Shown one piece after another: positions 8,663 to 16,986 of a stretch of 25,641 nt of DNA (its first letter is position 1; every line of letters starts with the position of its first letter). The position numbers and the translations under genes were made by a program. The stretch spans positions 1 to 25,641 of IMG/VR virus record IMGVR_UViG_3300029262_000368; one strand, written 5' to 3'. The notes beneath the pieces are model-generated. The model made no database searches and had not been told where the DNA came from. It saw only the letters and a program-made list of their open reading frames with translations. The DNA is from a virus.

Positions 8663-9913
8663 TTATACTTTTTTAATTAGTTCTACACTATTTTCAAATG
8701 CTACAACTTTGTATAAATTCCCTGTCCCTACAGACTTTACATAACATTCAATTGAGTTTGGAAAAAAGTAATTAGTAATCAACCAGCTTCCATTTTTACG
8801 CCAATCAATTTCACTCTTGTGTATTAGCTCATCAAGAAAGAACGGGTGCCTTTCACCATTTTTCTTATATAACGGAACAAGCTCTATTTTGTCTCCACCT
8901 TCATAGCGATATTCTGGCAAGTCTATCTCAATTTGCCCTTTAGTTCTATCTTCATCGTTAACAAAACTATAACCAAATTTAGTATAATTAGGGCCCAAAC
9001 ATTCAAGCATAAGCTCGGATAATAGATATTTTTCAAAGATTTTTTTGCTACAATTATTCACACCCACTATAGTCTCAGAAATATCTATAAAATGCTTACT
9101 TGATAAGACAACACCTATTGTAAAAAGCTTATGGAGCTTAATATAACACAGAAGACCAAGATTTGAAGGACACAAAACTAAGTAGTGATTATTGCTATCT
9201 AAGTCAAGATAATCAATAAACGGGTCGAAGACTTCTGACTCTAAACCAGACCCTATTTTCACGAATTTTTCAACGTTAAAGTAATCGGTATTCTTAAGAA
9301 TTTCTGATATTTTAACGGCATCTTCGTCCATAAAATATTCTGATATTGAATCAACAGCAAATTCATATGCTATCTTCAGAAGCCCTATTTTAAACTTCAA
9401 GGTGTCTATCTCCCACCTTGTAAAAACCTTACCATTTCTCTCCTCACGCCGCCACTCACTATCAAACACAGCATTTTTAGGAATATTATGACGACTTAAA
9501 ACTTTTTTAAGAAGTCCGTCAATTTCACCCTCAGATTTCGAATTTACTTCTATTTCAATCCTTTGAACTTCACCATCATCATCCTTCTCAATTTTAATTA
9601 TTGGATGATGAATTACTTCATAGTTTCCGTCCTTATCTATATCAACTCTAGCTTTATTTTCAGGGTTATCTTGACAATAAAAAATGCCTGAGAATGGTTT
9701 CGGAATTTTTCCACTCTTACCAGGTATTTCTTGGTTTGAACGGTATAATTTAGTGAGTTGGTGATTAACTAAGGGAGAATCAATTTTATCTCCCATTGAC
9801 GAATTACATGACTTACAAACATTATATATATGGTAATAACCATTTAAAGAGTCAGGTATAACATGCTCATCACTCATGTCATCTTTATCAAGTCGGCAGA
9901 TAATACAAATCAT
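8663..9913 (-). CDS. HNH-family nuclease-like protein
   Basis: Encodes 416 residues. The first 45 contain a zinc-ribbon HNH motif: C3-x-x-C6, SDEHVIPDSLNG with E16-H17, then C33-KS-C36-N37 and GDKID, as in HNH endonucleases where the His is the general base and Cys pairs hold zinc. The remaining ~370 residues are unrecognised, AT-rich in coding, and contain mixed alpha/beta segments. AAGGAG lies ten bases before the ATG. It sits alone in the T-U insertion with a terminator behind it, the layout of a self-contained moron. Large proteins with an N-terminal HNH and an unknown C-terminal part are common among anti-phage effectors, so exclusion is the leading guess. Confidence 0.65.
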   Translation of the reverse strand: MICIICRLDKDDMSDEHVIPDSLNGYYHIYNVCKSCNSSMGDKIDSPLVNHQLTKLYRSNQEIPGKSGKIPKPFSGIFYCQDNPENKARVDIDKDGNYEVIHHPIIKIEKDDDGEVQRIEIEVNSKSEGEIDGLLKKVLSRHNIPKNAVFDSEWRREERNGKVFTRWEIDTLKFKIGLLKIAYEFAVDSISEYFMDEDAVKISEILKNTDYFNVEKFVKIGSGLESEVFDPFIDYLDLDSNNHYLVLCPSNLGLLCYIKLHKLFTIGVVLSSKHFIDISETIVGVNNCSKKIFEKYLLSELMLECLGPNYTKFGYSFVNDEDRTKGQIEIDLPEYRYEGGDKIELVPLYKKNGERHPFFLDELIHKSEIDWRKNGSWLITNYFFPNSIECYVKSVGTGNLYKVVAFENSVELIKKV

Positions 9914-10693: not shown

Positions 10694-11608
10694 TCATGAA
10701 AAAGGGTAATTGTCAATCACTGCATCTAAATCATTTTCAATACCTAGATCCACGCCTACCTTTAAAATAAAGCCTTCTAATTTGGACAATTTATCCTCAA
10801 GCTCCTTCTTTTTATCAGAGATAGCAAGCCTAGATTGAAATATTTTGTTCTTTTCTTGAGTAAGCTTCTTAGTCTTTATTTCAAGCTGCTCTAACTCAAA
10901 AAGAGCATCTTTGTTGTATTTGGCTGTCAATTTATTGTTGATGAGAGTCCTATCAGAAACACTCAACTTATGAGGAAAATACTTATGCTCATAAGAACTA
11001 TGACTATTTGCCAGTGGATAAACTCTCAAAGCAGATACACTTTGCACCATATTCAACAAGGCATACGATGTTTTTTCAGAGTACCTCAAAGAAAGTTTAC
11101 TAAACACTGAATTGCTAATTTTAACGCTATCAACTTTACTCTCGTTGCCAGGGTGAGTAGACAAAGGAAGAACCTGAACAATCCCATCACTTTCACTTAA
11201 GACTATACATGGCCTTCTTTTATGCATTTCACCCGGAAGCAAATAACCATAAGGTCTATTGATTTTTTTAGCTCCATTGTGGGTTAGAACATCAAAATAA
11301 AAGCCAAACTCAACCTCTACAACAACATACTTTTTTATAAACTTTTCAATATCTTTATTTTGACTTCTAGCAAACTCACCAAGTGACAACGTTGACTCCG
11401 CTTCACTCAATGAAATAATTGCCTTGTCACCATCGACAATAAGTTCCTCTACTTTCCAATTCAAGATGCTCGGGCGAGATGAAAAGGTACATTTATAAAA
11501 CATATCATGAGAATTTGGCTTGAAAGACGGGATAAATGTCTCATTGATTTGATCATGCTTAATGACACCTAAAACACCAGCATCTTGCTCTTGAAAAACC
11601 ACTTCCAT
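10694..11608 (-). CDS. PemK/MazF-like domain protein with C-terminal coiled coil
   Basis: Encodes 304 residues from ATG 11606-11608, which has GGAA upstream; a TTG four codons earlier lacks a ribosome site. Residues ~117-196 resemble the PemK/MazF/CcdB-like fold: YGYLLPGEMHKRRPCIVLSE with the RP-hydrophobic strand, then VQVLPLSTHPG, then SYALLNMVQSVSALRV, equivalent to the toxin's Gly-loop, central strand and closing strand. The N-terminal ~110 residues are unknown. Residues ~230-285 form a heptad-type helix rich in Lys and Glu (LEQLEIKTKKLTQEKNK). No antitoxin gene is adjacent. Activity as an RNA interferase is a possibility, not shown; some family members have lost it. Confidence 0.55.
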   Translation of the reverse strand: MEVVFQEQDAGVLGVIKHDQINETFIPSFKPNSHDMFYKCTFSSRPSILNWKVEELIVDGDKAIISLSEAESTLSLGEFARSQNKDIEKFIKKYVVVEVEFGFYFDVLTHNGAKKINRPYGYLLPGEMHKRRPCIVLSESDGIVQVLPLSTHPGNESKVDSVKISNSVFSKLSLRYSEKTSYALLNMVQSVSALRVYPLANSHSSYEHKYFPHKLSVSDRTLINNKLTAKYNKDALFELEQLEIKTKKLTQEKNKIFQSRLAISDKKKELEDKLSKLEGFILKVGVDLGIENDLDAVIDNYPFS

Positions 11609-11698
11609 TAACTTTTCCAAACTGATTATTGACTAAAAAAATTCACAAAAGACATTATTATGAACTTTACCCACACAACGATCTAGTGAATTATATTT

Positions 11699-14506
11699 TT
11701 AACTCGCTAGCTTATCTGTCAAGCTGCCATCGGACCTTGTCGCCACGTCCATATTTCCCATCATACCTTGGGCAAATTCGGCTTTAAGGCGCTCTATCAC
11801 TTGGTCGCTGACTTGTTGATCGTAGGCAGGGTTGCCTGTGGGTGTAAGGTGGATGGTTGGCGCAAAGGTCATGCTTTTGTTGTTGTTTTGTAGCTGTTGG
11901 CTTTGCTTTGCGATGGTTTCTGGTGCGGGTTGGTCGGTTTTGTCGTCTTCAAACCATCCGCCTATTTTTCCGCCAATCCATTCACCTAGTGAGCCGCCGC
12001 CCATGCCGCCTGCGATGGAGCCGACGATTCCCCCTATGGCTGTGCCTATAATGGGCACGACGGAACCAATAGCCGCACCGGCTAACCCGCCTGCGGCCGC
12101 ACCACCTAAGCCCCCTGCCATATCGCCTGCAGTTGCACCTATTTGTGTGCTTTTGCCTTGTGATACGGCCGAGGCAAGGCCAGCACCTTGTAAGGCGATG
12201 TCTAATGGCCTAAAGAGTTTCCCCGCACCTTTTAGCATGCCGCCAGCCATTCCCCCCATAGGTAACATGGAAGATAAACCGCCAGCGGCTCCGGCTAGGT
12301 CAGCACCAGTCATGGCAAGATCAGCTGCATTGGCTGATCCTGAAAACATAGACAAGACTGCGCCGCTACTGAGCAACCCTGCGAGCCGGCCGTATTTGCC
12401 AAGGTGAAAGCGTCCACGTCTTGCTGGTTTGGCTCGGTTTAATAGGCTGTCTTCGTAGCTCCTTAGCCCTGCCAGTCTATTACTTACTTTGCCATTTCCT
12501 CTTGTCTTTCCCCTTACTCCTTTTCCATTTCTTTCTCGTCCATAACCGCCGCTTGCGCCAGCCCCCAGGTCATTCAGTTTGCGGTTGAGGCGGTCTAACG
12601 AGCGTGATGCTCGGTTGGCACTTTGGGTGGTTTGGTCGGTAGAATTAGTAAGTTTGGTTTTTCCAAGAGTAAAGCGATCACGCCCATTGCCAAGAGTAAG
12701 TTTCGCAAGTTTGAAGGCAATTGCCCCCGCTTTTACGACCGCAATAGCGGCAGCCACACCTAACAATCCACTAGCCAGTTTCGGGTTGGCTTCGGCAAAG
12801 TCGGCCACACTGTCTATTACGCTCATTAAGGGCGGCAAGACAGCATCGAGTACAGGCAAGAGTCTATCGCCTAATACGATGCTCATACGATCAAACTTGG
12901 CACTTAGTTGCGCGAGCATGTGTCCTCGTGTCGCGGCTCGGTTGGCGTATTCAGCGTTTACACTGCCTGTTCGATCAGCTTGATTCGCCACCTTGCCAAA
13001 GGCAGCCACAAGACCGTTGGATGGATCGTCCAATGTGGTAACCAATTTGGCCACCGCACCTTTGACTTCTTCCCCAAAGAGCTGGGAAATCACCGCACCT
13101 CGGTCTTGGGCATCCACGTTTTGTAGACTGCGCATCACTTGCACAAGGGTGCCTTGAGCGTCTTCTTGCATCATGCCGGCAAGTTCTTGGGAATCAAACC
13201 CAATGCGACCCATGGCGTTCTTTTGTGCACCTGTTGCAGCAAAGCCTGCAGTCAGTCGCCCTGTGATGTTTTTAAGAGCGGTGGACGCCACTTCGTCCGT
13301 GGCACCACCCGCTATAAGGCTGGCAGAGAGTGCTGCTGTTTGGTTGTAACTTAACCCTGCGCCCATGGCTGTAGAACCTTGACGCACCATGACGGCGGCA
13401 ATGTCCTTTGCCTTGGCATTCATGTTGTTACTTAAGTAGTTTGTCGCATCAGCTAGGTCTAAGGCTTTTTTCTGTGTGAGCCCCATGGACGCACGAAAGG
13501 TCGCTAAGGTGGAACCAGCTTCATCTGCAGAAACGTCCCACGCAACACTCATTTTTGTGGCGGCTTGGGCGAATTCTAAGAGCTGGTCTTTTTCAATACC
13601 AGATTGCCCTGCAGCGGTAACGATGTCGGCAATGCCTTCTTGTTGGACTCCTAGGCGCCCAGCAAGCTTCATCATCTCTGTTCGGTATTGAGCTTCTTCT
13701 TTTTTGTCCGAAAAGTTGACGACTTTTTTGACATCGGCAAAGGTGTTTTCATACTCGACCGCACGTTTACCCGCCATGATAAGCGGTGCGGTTTTCACAG
13801 CTAACCCAACCGCCTGCCCAACAAGCTCACCTTTTTTAGCATTACGATCGGCAATGCGCCCTTTTAGGGTTTGAATCTTTTTGAGTTTGGTTTGTTGACG
13901 GTCTAAGGCTTGGCTAGCTTTATCTGTTTGTTTCGCAAGTTTGAGCTCTTGTGCACCTAAAGAATTCACTTTAAGGCCAGCGCTGGCCATGTCACTGCGT
14001 AAGCCCCCAAGCTCTTGGGCTTGTTTGCTGTAAGAAGTATTTAGGCGATTAGACGCCATTTCTGAGTTCTTGAGTGCCGCTTTTTCTTTTTTGTAGCTCT
14101 GCTCAGCCGCCTTTTTTGCTTTGGTGAGCTCTTTTACTTTTTGACTACTTTTTAATACTTGCTCAGACTCTACGCCATAAGCTTCCGCTGCATCAAGCAC
14201 CGCTCGTTCAGCGCTAGCAAGTTCCGCAGTATGTTGCTTTACGGTGGCTTTAGCGCTGTTTTCTGCTTGTTTTAAGTGGTTTGTCTCTTGTCTCGCTTGA
14301 GACATGGCCTTACGCGTTTCATCTAAACGTGTACTTAGGGTTTTAAAGCGAGTGACCAGCTTTTGTTGATCACTGAGGCTTTTAAGGCTTTTGCTAGTTT
14401 GTTCTACTTGATCCTCTAGCTTGCCTGCGCTCTGTATAGCACTTTTAAACGGTTTGCTGAATTTATCTACCGCTGATAGTGCGATGGAAATTTTCTGATC
14501 GGCCAC
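11699..14506 (-). CDS. T: Tail tape measure protein
   Basis: Encodes 935 residues, the longest gene here, as expected for the ruler that sets tail length and spans the tube lumen. Starts with GTG at 14504-14506 behind AAGGGGT. Residues ~10-225 are coiled coil (Lys/Glu/Gln/Ala-rich). About 235-560 is the conserved tape-measure core (YENTFADVKKVV, QEGIADIVTAAGQSGI, AWDVSADEAGSTLATFRASM, the last shown in part). Around 720-880 come Gly/Ala-rich hydrophobic segments that could insert in the membrane. It follows the E/E' chaperones, which assist its assembly. It is separated from U by the cargo cassette. Confidence 0.95.
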   Translation of the reverse strand: MADQKISIALSAVDKFSKPFKSAIQSAGKLEDQVEQTSKSLKSLSDQQKLVTRFKTLSTRLDETRKAMSQARQETNHLKQAENSAKATVKQHTAELASAERAVLDAAEAYGVESEQVLKSSQKVKELTKAKKAAEQSYKKEKAALKNSEMASNRLNTSYSKQAQELGGLRSDMASAGLKVNSLGAQELKLAKQTDKASQALDRQQTKLKKIQTLKGRIADRNAKKGELVGQAVGLAVKTAPLIMAGKRAVEYENTFADVKKVVNFSDKKEEAQYRTEMMKLAGRLGVQQEGIADIVTAAGQSGIEKDQLLEFAQAATKMSVAWDVSADEAGSTLATFRASMGLTQKKALDLADATNYLSNNMNAKAKDIAAVMVRQGSTAMGAGLSYNQTAALSASLIAGGATDEVASTALKNITGRLTAGFAATGAQKNAMGRIGFDSQELAGMMQEDAQGTLVQVMRSLQNVDAQDRGAVISQLFGEEVKGAVAKLVTTLDDPSNGLVAAFGKVANQADRTGSVNAEYANRAATRGHMLAQLSAKFDRMSIVLGDRLLPVLDAVLPPLMSVIDSVADFAEANPKLASGLLGVAAAIAVVKAGAIAFKLAKLTLGNGRDRFTLGKTKLTNSTDQTTQSANRASRSLDRLNRKLNDLGAGASGGYGRERNGKGVRGKTRGNGKVSNRLAGLRSYEDSLLNRAKPARRGRFHLGKYGRLAGLLSSGAVLSMFSGSANAADLAMTGADLAGAAGGLSSMLPMGGMAGGMLKGAGKLFRPLDIALQGAGLASAVSQGKSTQIGATAGDMAGGLGGAAAGGLAGAAIGSVVPIIGTAIGGIVGSIAGGMGGGSLGEWIGGKIGGWFEDDKTDQPAPETIAKQSQQLQNNNKSMTFAPTIHLTPTGNPAYDQQVSDQVIERLKAEFAQGMMGNMDVATRSDGSLTDKLAS

Positions 14507-14509
14507 AGC

Positions 14510-15201
14510 CTACCCCTTATTGATACCCAGTTTTGCGGCAGCTAGGTGATAGCGGCGCATGGCTTCATCAATGCGCCAATTCATGATTTCGGATGGTGGA
14601 ACGTGGTAAACCAGAGGAATAACGTCGGTTAGGACTTCGACGTCTTTTGGCGAAAGTAATCCGCCGGTTTGTCCAAAAAATCGATAAGGCGCTCTTGCAG
14701 TTGATTCCAGTCTGGCAGGCTGAGACGTTCTAGTTCAGCGTGTGAGAAACCAGAACAGCTTGAGCTAATAAAGATGGTACGCTCCCATTCATTTTGATGA
14801 GAGTCCATTAGGTCTGTCGTGCCAACGGTAGGCGGACGAAGCTTGTAACTGTTTTTTTGTTGGCCATCGTCACCTTGAATCGGAATGAGTAAGGTAGGTA
14901 AAGCCTTGTCGAATTCGCCTTCAATAAACTGAGTGGCTGAAGTATTCATCAACTCCAATACGTGATTTTGAATACTGGTGTAATCTGGCGTAATGAGCGT
15001 TTTGAGCTCTTTATCTGTGAGTCCCGTGCTTTCGCTAACACAAGCACGAAGTAATTTTGTGTCGTTACTGTTCGCCTTGTTCTTTTCTGAAAGCTCACGG
15101 TGTTGGCCCATGGTAATGGTGTGGACCTTAACGGCTTCGATTTGCTCGCCCTTCTCACTTTCAATAGGCCAAACAAGTAGGTGTTTTTTTGCTTCAAACA
15201 T
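14510..15201 (-). CDS. E': Tail assembly chaperone E+E' frameshift product
   Basis: The long chaperone form, made when ribosomes slip back one base at 14674-14680. The first 176 residues are shared with E, then 54 residues follow in the -1 frame: GQTGGLLSPKDVEVLTD at the joint, PLVYHVPPSEI, MNWRIDEAMRRYHLAAAK, ending INKG at the TAG 14510-14512. The -1 frame is open throughout and fills the gap between E and T exactly, stopping four bases inside the T start region. P2 makes E+E' in the same way. The long form is thought to recruit tape-measure protein and tube protein during tail assembly. Coordinates span both frames. Confidence 0.8.
14629..15201 (-). CDS. E: Tail assembly chaperone E, internally duplicated
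   Basis: Encodes 190 residues, about twice the length of P2 gpE (91). Two halves are alike: residues ~8-92 and ~104-183. Each runs LL..PI....G, a Ser/Cys-containing helix (LLRACVSESTGLTDKEL / TIFISSSCSGFSHAEL), then L..PD(Y/W)..(I/L)Q and an aliphatic helix before a final aromatic. The family role is a cytosolic chaperone of the tape measure. The unslipped frame ends KTSKS. A terminator stands upstream at 15237-15273, between FII and this gene. Confidence 0.85.
   Translation of the reverse strand: MFEAKKHLLVWPIESEKGEQIEAVKVHTITMGQHRELSEKNKANSNDTKLLRACVSESTGLTDKELKTLITPDYTSIQNHVLELMNTSATQFIEGEFDKALPTLLIPIQGDDGQQKNSYKLRPPTVGTTDLMDSHQNEWERTIFISSSCSGFSHAELERLSLPDWNQLQERLIDFLDKPADYFRQKTSKS
14674..14680 (-). 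promoter_or_regulatory. Programmed -1 frameshift site TTTTTTG
   Basis: On the minus strand the bases read T-TTT-TTG in the zero frame of E (codons F175 and L176), the same slippery heptamer as in P2 E/E'. Slipping gives GGA as the next codon and enters the open E' frame. The heptamer lies 15 codons before the E stop. Confidence 0.85.
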
Positions 15202-15308: not shown

Positions 15309-15815
15309 TTACGGCAAACCAACATTACGACGGTGCTCGGCTAGAATGTCACCTTGCCCAAGGTTAAGAATTTGGGCATTTCGATCAATCTCGAAAATGA
15401 TCTTTCCATACTCCATTTTCTTGTAAGCACTGACAGACATTTCCATATCATGATCAGGTAGTTCACCCATTTTACTTGGGGATTCTGTAATACCTGTGAT
15501 TTCGCCTGTAATGCTGTACTCAATAGCAAACTTGTTGCCGTCTTCGTCTTGATGGGATTCGTTGACGTTTACCTGGCATAAGTCACCAGAAATCAAACCA
15601 AAGGCAGACAATAGAAGCTGATCGGCACCTTTAATTTTGAACTTGGCCGTAAGCTTTTCGAGCCCAACCATTACTTCACCTGGTATAAAGGAGCCACCAC
15701 GGGTTTCTTGCATGGTCTTTTTAACTTCAGGCGGGGTGAACTCATCGAGCTCTTTGATTAACGGATATCCGTTAATCAGCGCCATTCGGGTGATGCGGGT
15801 ACGTTGTCCAGCCAT
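15309..15815 (-). CDS. FII: Major tail tube protein
   Basis: Encodes 168 residues, matching P2 FII (about 172). Typical start MAGQRTRITRMALING, the block GYPLIKELDEFTPPEVKK, then RGGSFIPGEVMVGLEKL and a C-terminal IFEIDRNAQILNL, all characteristic of the P2 tube family. It forms the inner tube through which DNA passes. GAAGGAG lies before the ATG, and the start is two bases from the sheath stop, so the two are co-expressed. Confidence 0.95.
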   Translation of the reverse strand: MAGQRTRITRMALINGYPLIKELDEFTPPEVKKTMQETRGGSFIPGEVMVGLEKLTAKFKIKGADQLLLSAFGLISGDLCQVNVNESHQDEDGNKFAIEYSITGEITGITESPSKMGELPDHDMEMSVSAYKKMEYGKIIFEIDRNAQILNLGQGDILAEHRRNVGLP

Positions 15816-15816
15816 C

Positions 15817-16986
15817 TTATAGAACTCCTTCTAGAAACGATTCGACGATGCCGACATCTTCAATTAAGTGGTACACCATATGTTCGTTCGGTGCATAGCC
15901 ATGGTATTTGATGGCAATGTGCCATTCGCCGTTTGTGTAGTTTTCAACGTTATTGAGCGTCGGATGAAGATACACTTGAGCACCCATGATGGTTTCGTCA
16001 GCCTGCAAGGATTTGAGCCAGAAATTAAGCTTTTCAATCTCTTGGTTCATGAACGATTCGCTCAAGTTACGCGCCATGGCTCGCTGTGCCGTTTTAGCCA
16101 ACTTACGAATGATGGCGTATTCCAAACCGACTTGGGAAACAAAGCGTCCCATGACACAACGGTTACCGATCAACGAAAAGCCACCCATAGACGTTCGTGC
16201 AAAGTACGAGACGCCATATCGGTTCATTAGATCGCCATTAGTGGCTTTGTCCATGATGTTGTAATCAATGGTTCGTGCTGTGCCATCTATGAGAACCCCC
16301 ATTCCACCTTTCGCAGGGCTTTCCCATAGCTTTACACGGGCAAAACAGGACAATGCAGCAGCTGCACCAGAAGTGTACACATACCCTTTTGCTGCTTGAC
16401 TGTAGACGGATACGAACGGATCAACCAGATAAAATGCGTCGAACCCTGTTCCTTCACCACCGAGAGATTCGGAATAAGCAACCGCTTCATTGTCATTAGT
16501 ATTTGGTCCGTCACCAACTGGAATCGCAAAAATACGTTTACCCAGTGCCGCCAAAGAGTCAGCAACCGGTTTGCTATTAAAGCCTGGTGCAGCAAGATGG
16601 GTTGGAACTTCCTGACAATCTGACAAGGCCTCTATGCCTGTACGCTGACCTGTTGTTGGGTCAACCTTACCGATCACGTTGTTGACCGTTGAAGCTGCGT
16701 CTTCCCCTTCTTCGACAATGACTGCGTAGATAGGAACAGATACTAAACGCTGTAGCTCATAGCATGTTCGCCATAAAGTCCCGCGCTCAGTGCCAACCAT
16801 ATCAAGCTTCGCAGTTCCTGCAGGGTTAGCAATTCGAATAGGACTATTTTTGGGCAAAAGGGGGTCGGCGTCCGGTGCGGTTCCAACGATGCCAAGCACG
16901 ATACTGCCCAGTGGGCCCATGGCCGGCGGCGCTGAATGCTTTTCTACACTCATACCGTTATGAACAAAGGATACAATCTCTGGCAT
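15817..16986 (-). CDS. FI: Contractile tail sheath protein
   Basis: Encodes 389 residues, as in P2 FI (396). The N-terminus HNGMSVEKHSAPPAMGPLG and block SVPIYAVIVEEGED, the middle FYLVDPFVSVY and ending WHIAIKYHGYAPNEHMVYHL are typical sheath features. It contracts to drive the tube into the cell. Its ATG overlaps the stop of the 63-residue gene upstream (TAATG), and the tube gene follows directly. Confidence 0.95.
   Translation of the reverse strand: MPEIVSFVHNGMSVEKHSAPPAMGPLGSIVLGIVGTAPDADPLLPKNSPIRIANPAGTAKLDMVGTERGTLWRTCYELQRLVSVPIYAVIVEEGEDAASTVNNVIGKVDPTTGQRTGIEALSDCQEVPTHLAAPGFNSKPVADSLAALGKRIFAIPVGDGPNTNDNEAVAYSESLGGEGTGFDAFYLVDPFVSVYSQAAKGYVYTSGAAAALSCFARVKLWESPAKGGMGVLIDGTARTIDYNIMDKATNGDLMNRYGVSYFARTSMGGFSLIGNRCVMGRFVSQVGLEYAIIRKLAKTAQRAMARNLSESFMNQEIEKLNFWLKSLQADETIMGAQVYLHPTLNNVENYTNGEWHIAIKYHGYAPNEHMVYHLIEDVGIVESFLEGVL

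Follow-up and report, generated by a model that had tools for sequence, protein, structure and literature searches.

The E gene of the virus analysed here very probably encodes an ordinary tail assembly chaperone of the P2 type, made as E and, by a -1 frameshift, as E+E', whose chaperone domain was duplicated once in the ancestor of its lineage. The window, i.e., the whole stretch of DNA that was analysed, is an IMG/VR virus record of 25,641 nucleotides (IMGVR_UViG_3300029262_000368). The E gene and its neighbours are arranged there as follows:

11699..14506, minus strand: T, tail length tape measure protein, 935 aa (PF10145; phrog_28, E=2e-89)
14510..14674, minus strand: putative E' extension in the -1 frame, 54 residues and the stop codon (coding-type substitutions; conserved GGLLS...DV.PLVY core)
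14629..15201, minus strand: E, two-domain tail assembly chaperone, 190 aa in the 0 frame (ORF; PF10109; phrog_166; AlphaFold2)
14653..14892, minus strand: TAC domain copy 2, residues about 104-183, which bears the slip site (PF10109, 33 bits; hhalign with copy 1, 99.2%)
14674..14680, minus strand: T TTT TTG slippery heptamer, codons F175-L176 (in-frame phase; conserved in relatives)
14926..15180, minus strand: TAC domain copy 1, residues about 8-92, without TTTTTTN (PF10109, 22 bits; N-copy clade 98/98)
15309..15815, minus strand: FII, tail tube protein (PF04985, E=1e-30)
15817..16986, minus strand: FI, tail sheath protein (phrog_23, E=9e-59)

The gene order is thus sheath-tube-E-E'-T, all coded on the minus strand, and E lies between the tail tube (FII) and tape measure (T) genes, which is the genomic context of TAC_7 proteins. 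T has the start codon GTG at 14506. Just after T, an ORF of 308 aa (10694-11620, minus strand) has a weak PemK/MazF-like match of 22.5 bits against a cut-off of 23.1 and is an odd neighbour of tail genes. Another ORF of the tail gene region (8663-9913, minus strand, 416 aa) encodes an HNH_5 endonuclease domain and has no PHROGs match.

E is composed of two tandem TAC_7 domains, and the doubling, which the first-pass annotation had described as two gpE-type domains in tandem, is confirmed. The Pfam profile PF10109 (Phage_TAC_7, curated cut-off of 25 bits) matches the whole of E with 51.3 bits in two stretches; when searched alone, copy 2 reached 33 bits, above the cut-off, and copy 1 reached 22 bits, below it. 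The two halves are similar at the very residues named in that annotation (8-92 and 104-183), with BLASTP E=3e-8 and 19 of 84 residues identical (23%), and the coordinates given there were exact. When 43 non-redundant relatives were used to build profiles of the N and C halves and these were aligned in hhalign, the probability was 99.2% and the score 99.3, compared with 28.2 for the best of 50 column shuffles. Also, phrog_166, a tail protein family, matches both halves over its full length, as residues 5-189 of E correspond to positions 16-200 of 201 in the profile (E=1e-35).

The AlphaFold2 model of the 190-aa E (pLDDT 92, pTM 0.86) has two repeats of the same predicted fold, each with two strands and then four helices in the same order. 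Codons 175-176, where the slip would occur, terminate helix 162-176, which is the final core helix of copy 2, so E+E' would keep both domains and swap only a short terminal helix for E'. The best PDB fold match of E, a weak one (prob 0.95, E 0.13), is YqbN (3klu), a protein of the tail chaperone family. No match was found in the PDB fold search with copy 2 folded alone, and no solved relative of E was found in the sequence search. In a viral fold library, other tail chaperones of two-domain size were recognized, e.g., A0A8S5V8Z8 with TM 0.59 over the full length; matches of this type suggest that doubled chaperones may be commoner still.

One T TTT TTG is present in E (14680-14674), near the 3' end of the gene and in the X XXY YYZ phase relative to the 0 frame. 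Both the codons (F-L) and the phase are those of P2 gpE, in agreement with the initial reading that the heptamer is at the P2 position. A -1 shift at this place would replace the last 14 residues of E by 54 new ones, up to a stop codon at 14512-14510, and the predicted E+E' is 230 aa long. The E' frame ends 3 nt before the GTG of T and so was correctly described as a 54-residue extension ending next to that gene. E of the window also has in-frame AAAAAAA (15190) and AAAAAAC (14857), neither of which is common to the relatives at those places.

Relatives of E were identified in VP882, phiHAP-1, several Aeromonas phages, a Vibrio prophage, and viral contigs, and in bacterial genomes of Marinomonas, Vibrio, Shewanella, Pseudomonas, Edwardsiella, and others, with Marinomonas as the nearest named hosts (79% identity). 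The doubled arrangement is old and widespread in this P2-like lineage, occurring in marine gammaproteobacterial phages, Aeromonas phages, and Pseudomonas R-tailocin loci. TTTTTTG or TTTTTTA is at the expected place in 181 of the 183 loci with E, and the other two run off the end of their contig; 178 loci have an extension of 51-56 aa, and three have a short one (4, 17, and 26 aa). Loci were partly from the same contig and were therefore clustered, with 175 usable loci forming 97 clusters at 95% and 43 clusters at 80% identity. Each of the 43 non-redundant relatives (80% clusters) has a doubled E, a heptamer in copy 2 (TTTTTTG in 37, TTTTTTA in 6), and an extension of 51-56 aa, these counts being of kin sequences and so not of independent events. 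The restriction of the slippery heptamer to the second copy, claimed at first for the window, extends to the relatives, as TTTTTTN is absent from copy 1 in 175/175 usable loci. Slippage in copy 1 would truncate the protein, which probably explains why the site is retained in the last copy alone.

In L053, L068, L116, L172, and other Pseudomonas-type loci, T TTT TTA is followed by AAC or AAT, which creates a second overlapping heptamer, TTTAAAC or TTTAAAT, in the same frame. Decay or sequencing errors are possibly behind the E' of 17 aa in L082, the E' of 4 aa in L025, and the broken E frame of L183 (148 aa).

Frameshifting itself, its rate, and the chaperone role of the products are what we infer from these data. 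Most ribosomes would produce the two-domain E of 190 aa, and a minority would slip by -1 on T TTT TTG and produce E+E', with E' in place of the E terminus. In lambda, the tape measure is covered by gpG, and the frameshift-made gpGT binds the tail tube protein through its T part; tail assembly depends critically on the ratio of the short to the frameshifted chaperone (PMC5009743). P2 frameshifts 2-3 times more often than lambda (PMC5009743). E and E+E' most likely act as lambda gpG/gpGT do: E would cover the tape measure T, E+E' would recruit the tube protein FII, and both would leave before the tail is completed. There would be two TAC modules per chain and one E' per E+E', and the suggestion of the first-pass annotation that doubling alters the E : E+E' stoichiometry is plausible, by arithmetic only, from the two modules per chain.

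The two copies could be equivalent, each E chain being a covalent pseudo-dimer that fills two neighbouring tape measure positions, in which case half as many chains would be needed and the number of E' per TAC module would be half the slip rate. This is a serious possibility that falls somewhat short of probable: the predicted order of elements is the same in both copies, T is not doubled in length, as expected if the chain number halves, and doubling arose at least twice, but the copies have diverged to about 21-23% identity and copy 1 fits PF10109 less well (22 vs 33 bits). Alternatively, copy 1 may have become specialised, e.g., for contacts between chaperones, with tape measure binding and the slip site retained by copy 2. 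Such a division of labour may well exist, and we stop just short of expecting it; it agrees with the longer stem of the N-copy clade in the domain tree (0.79 vs 0.27 for the C copies), with the greater variability of the N copies, and with the location of invariant residues mostly in copy 2, although the overlap with E' itself imposes some of the conservation seen in copy 2.

The length of the tape measure gives no sign of module number scaling with tail length. T is 384-1014 aa long in representatives with doubled E, where some of the shortest ORFs may be disrupted or have a wrongly assigned start, and 571-973 aa long in single-domain loci. The idea that doubling tracks a longer tape measure was rejected, as these ranges overlap. 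In two Pseudomonas tailocin loci, L243 and L244, the module with doubled E has the longer T (795 vs 592 aa in one locus and 733 vs 588 aa in the other). In L243 (8773-9354, 16311-16607) and in L244, the mutS-cinA interval is occupied by two adjacent tail modules, of which one has a doubled E and the other a single TAC and a TTTTTTC heptamer.

For the P2-type chaperone with a domain duplicated in the lineage ancestor, a single duplication that preceded the diversification of the lineage is the simplest and most likely reading of the tree of 61 domains, in which the deep order is unsure owing to few columns and the sampling of single-domain proteins is limited. In this tree, the N copies are classified in one clade (98/98) and the C copies nearly so, and a 99/99 branch splits the single-domain proteins and those of a second doubling from the N and C copies. 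The low identity between the halves would also be compatible with fusion of two different pre-existing TAC genes, but this is improbable, as, according to the same branch, every single-domain TAC_7 of the limited sample is more distant from the N and C copies than these are from one another.

The second doubled TAC_7 was found in Pseudomonas prophages (L245, L246, L264-L267). It is 201 aa long, its halves are 54-72% identical, and it groups in the tree with single-domain proteins of about 104 aa; judged from these sequences, its doubling is independent and recent, and doubling arose at least twice. It resembles E of the window in having two tandem domains before the shift point, but its extension of about 37 aa is in the +1 frame, not -1, at GGG-CTT-TAA or GGG-GTT-TGA. 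The +1 site resembles that of prfB type.

In 60 Pseudomonas genomes, 84 PF10109 loci were found: 20 window-type doubled, 8 other doubled, and 56 single. The window-type loci are between mutS and cinA in eight out of nine genomes checked, with the ninth split over contigs; the mutS-cinA interval is a known R-tailocin site (PMC7815802, PMC2647930). A class-wide survey was sparse, with matches in 6/185 genomes. The doubling had been called unusual compared with P2, which is true against P2 gpE (91 aa, single domain) and too strong generally, as all homologues found in the lineage are doubled, PHROGs already includes the full-length family (phrog_166), a second doubled family exists, and 28/84 Pseudomonas loci are doubled. 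More generally, tail chaperones might repeatedly become covalent two-module proteins with the recoding signal in the last copy only, the ratio of E' domains to tape-binding modules being reset by domain number and slip rate; this is offered tentatively, as a rather doubtful generalization.

Use of the frameshift is indicated by the codon before F175, which ends in T in 43/43 non-redundant relatives even though its residue varies (D, N, H, A, S), compared with 21% of E codons elsewhere. A T before TTT is a requirement of the slip. In other codons, the base rates are 51% TTT for Phe and 28% TTR for Leu. Past the E stop codon, 26/16/58% of substitutions are at E' codon positions 1/2/3 (57.5% at the third position), a pattern by which E' is judged to be under coding constraint, and the GGLLS...DV.PLVY core of E' is kept across the relatives. 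The run CGGCGGACTACTTTC downstream of the slip site, in the E/E' overlap, is almost invariant, which dual coding explains, as the run encodes A-D-Y/F-F in E and G-G-L-L-S in E'. Since both overlapping motifs are kept, both C-termini appear to be under selection.

In the window, the 60 nt downstream of the slip site fold better than shuffled sequences (z -3.2), with z about -1.9 for 80 nt and about -2.0 for 120 nt. Folding above shuffles was absent in phiHAP-1, the Aeromonas phage, and P2, and no consensus RNA structure was found downstream of the slip site in an alignment of 35 sequences. A conserved RNA stimulator was rejected because of the missing consensus structure, the weaker z at 80 and 120 nt, and nucleotide conservation that fits dual coding. 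An F-L codon pair that forms the heptamer by chance, with E' never made, would fit the lack of such a stimulator, but is hardly credible against a heptamer conserved in 43/43 relatives behind a T-ending codon, the coding-type substitutions in E', and its constant length.

E of the window as a frameshifted P2-type chaperone is similar to P2 E/E+E' (FETUD operon) in gene order, in the TAC_7-type domain, and in T TTT TTG read in the same phase on F-L codons. The TTTTTTG of P2 gpE is 25 nt before the stop codon and its 57-residue extension also ends near T, compared with 54 residues in the window. Unlike the single domain of P2 gpE, the window protein has two, and it should be considered a variant of the P2 type, not a plain member. 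PF06528, the P2 GpE extension family, did not match E' of the window, and the window-family E' is weakly similar to P2 E', with 73% in hhalign over 19 columns and at most 13.6% for shuffles. VP882 gp30 and phiHAP-1 gp22 share the doubling, the heptamer, and E' with the window protein. Lambda gpG/gpGT would be comparable by analogy, as a tape measure chaperone with a slip-made minor long form (PMC5009743), but it belongs to a different protein family, has a different slip sequence, and is single-domain. Single-domain Phage_TAC_7 proteins of Burkholderia prophages were reported as antifungal or anti-oomycete proteins (PMC5581363, PMC12029163), which would not be expected of a tail chaperone family.

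The family is already known in PHROGs as phrog_166, and no annotation of its members goes beyond tail or hypothetical protein. No description of the doubling was found in a search of the open-access literature. The VP882, phiHAP-1, and Aeromonas phage records of GenBank have only the 0-frame E, as a hypothetical or tail protein, and E+E' is missing from them, so the finding corrects their annotation. A lineage with two modules per chain would represent a natural change in the balance of short and frameshifted chaperone, which is critical in lambda (PMC5009743).
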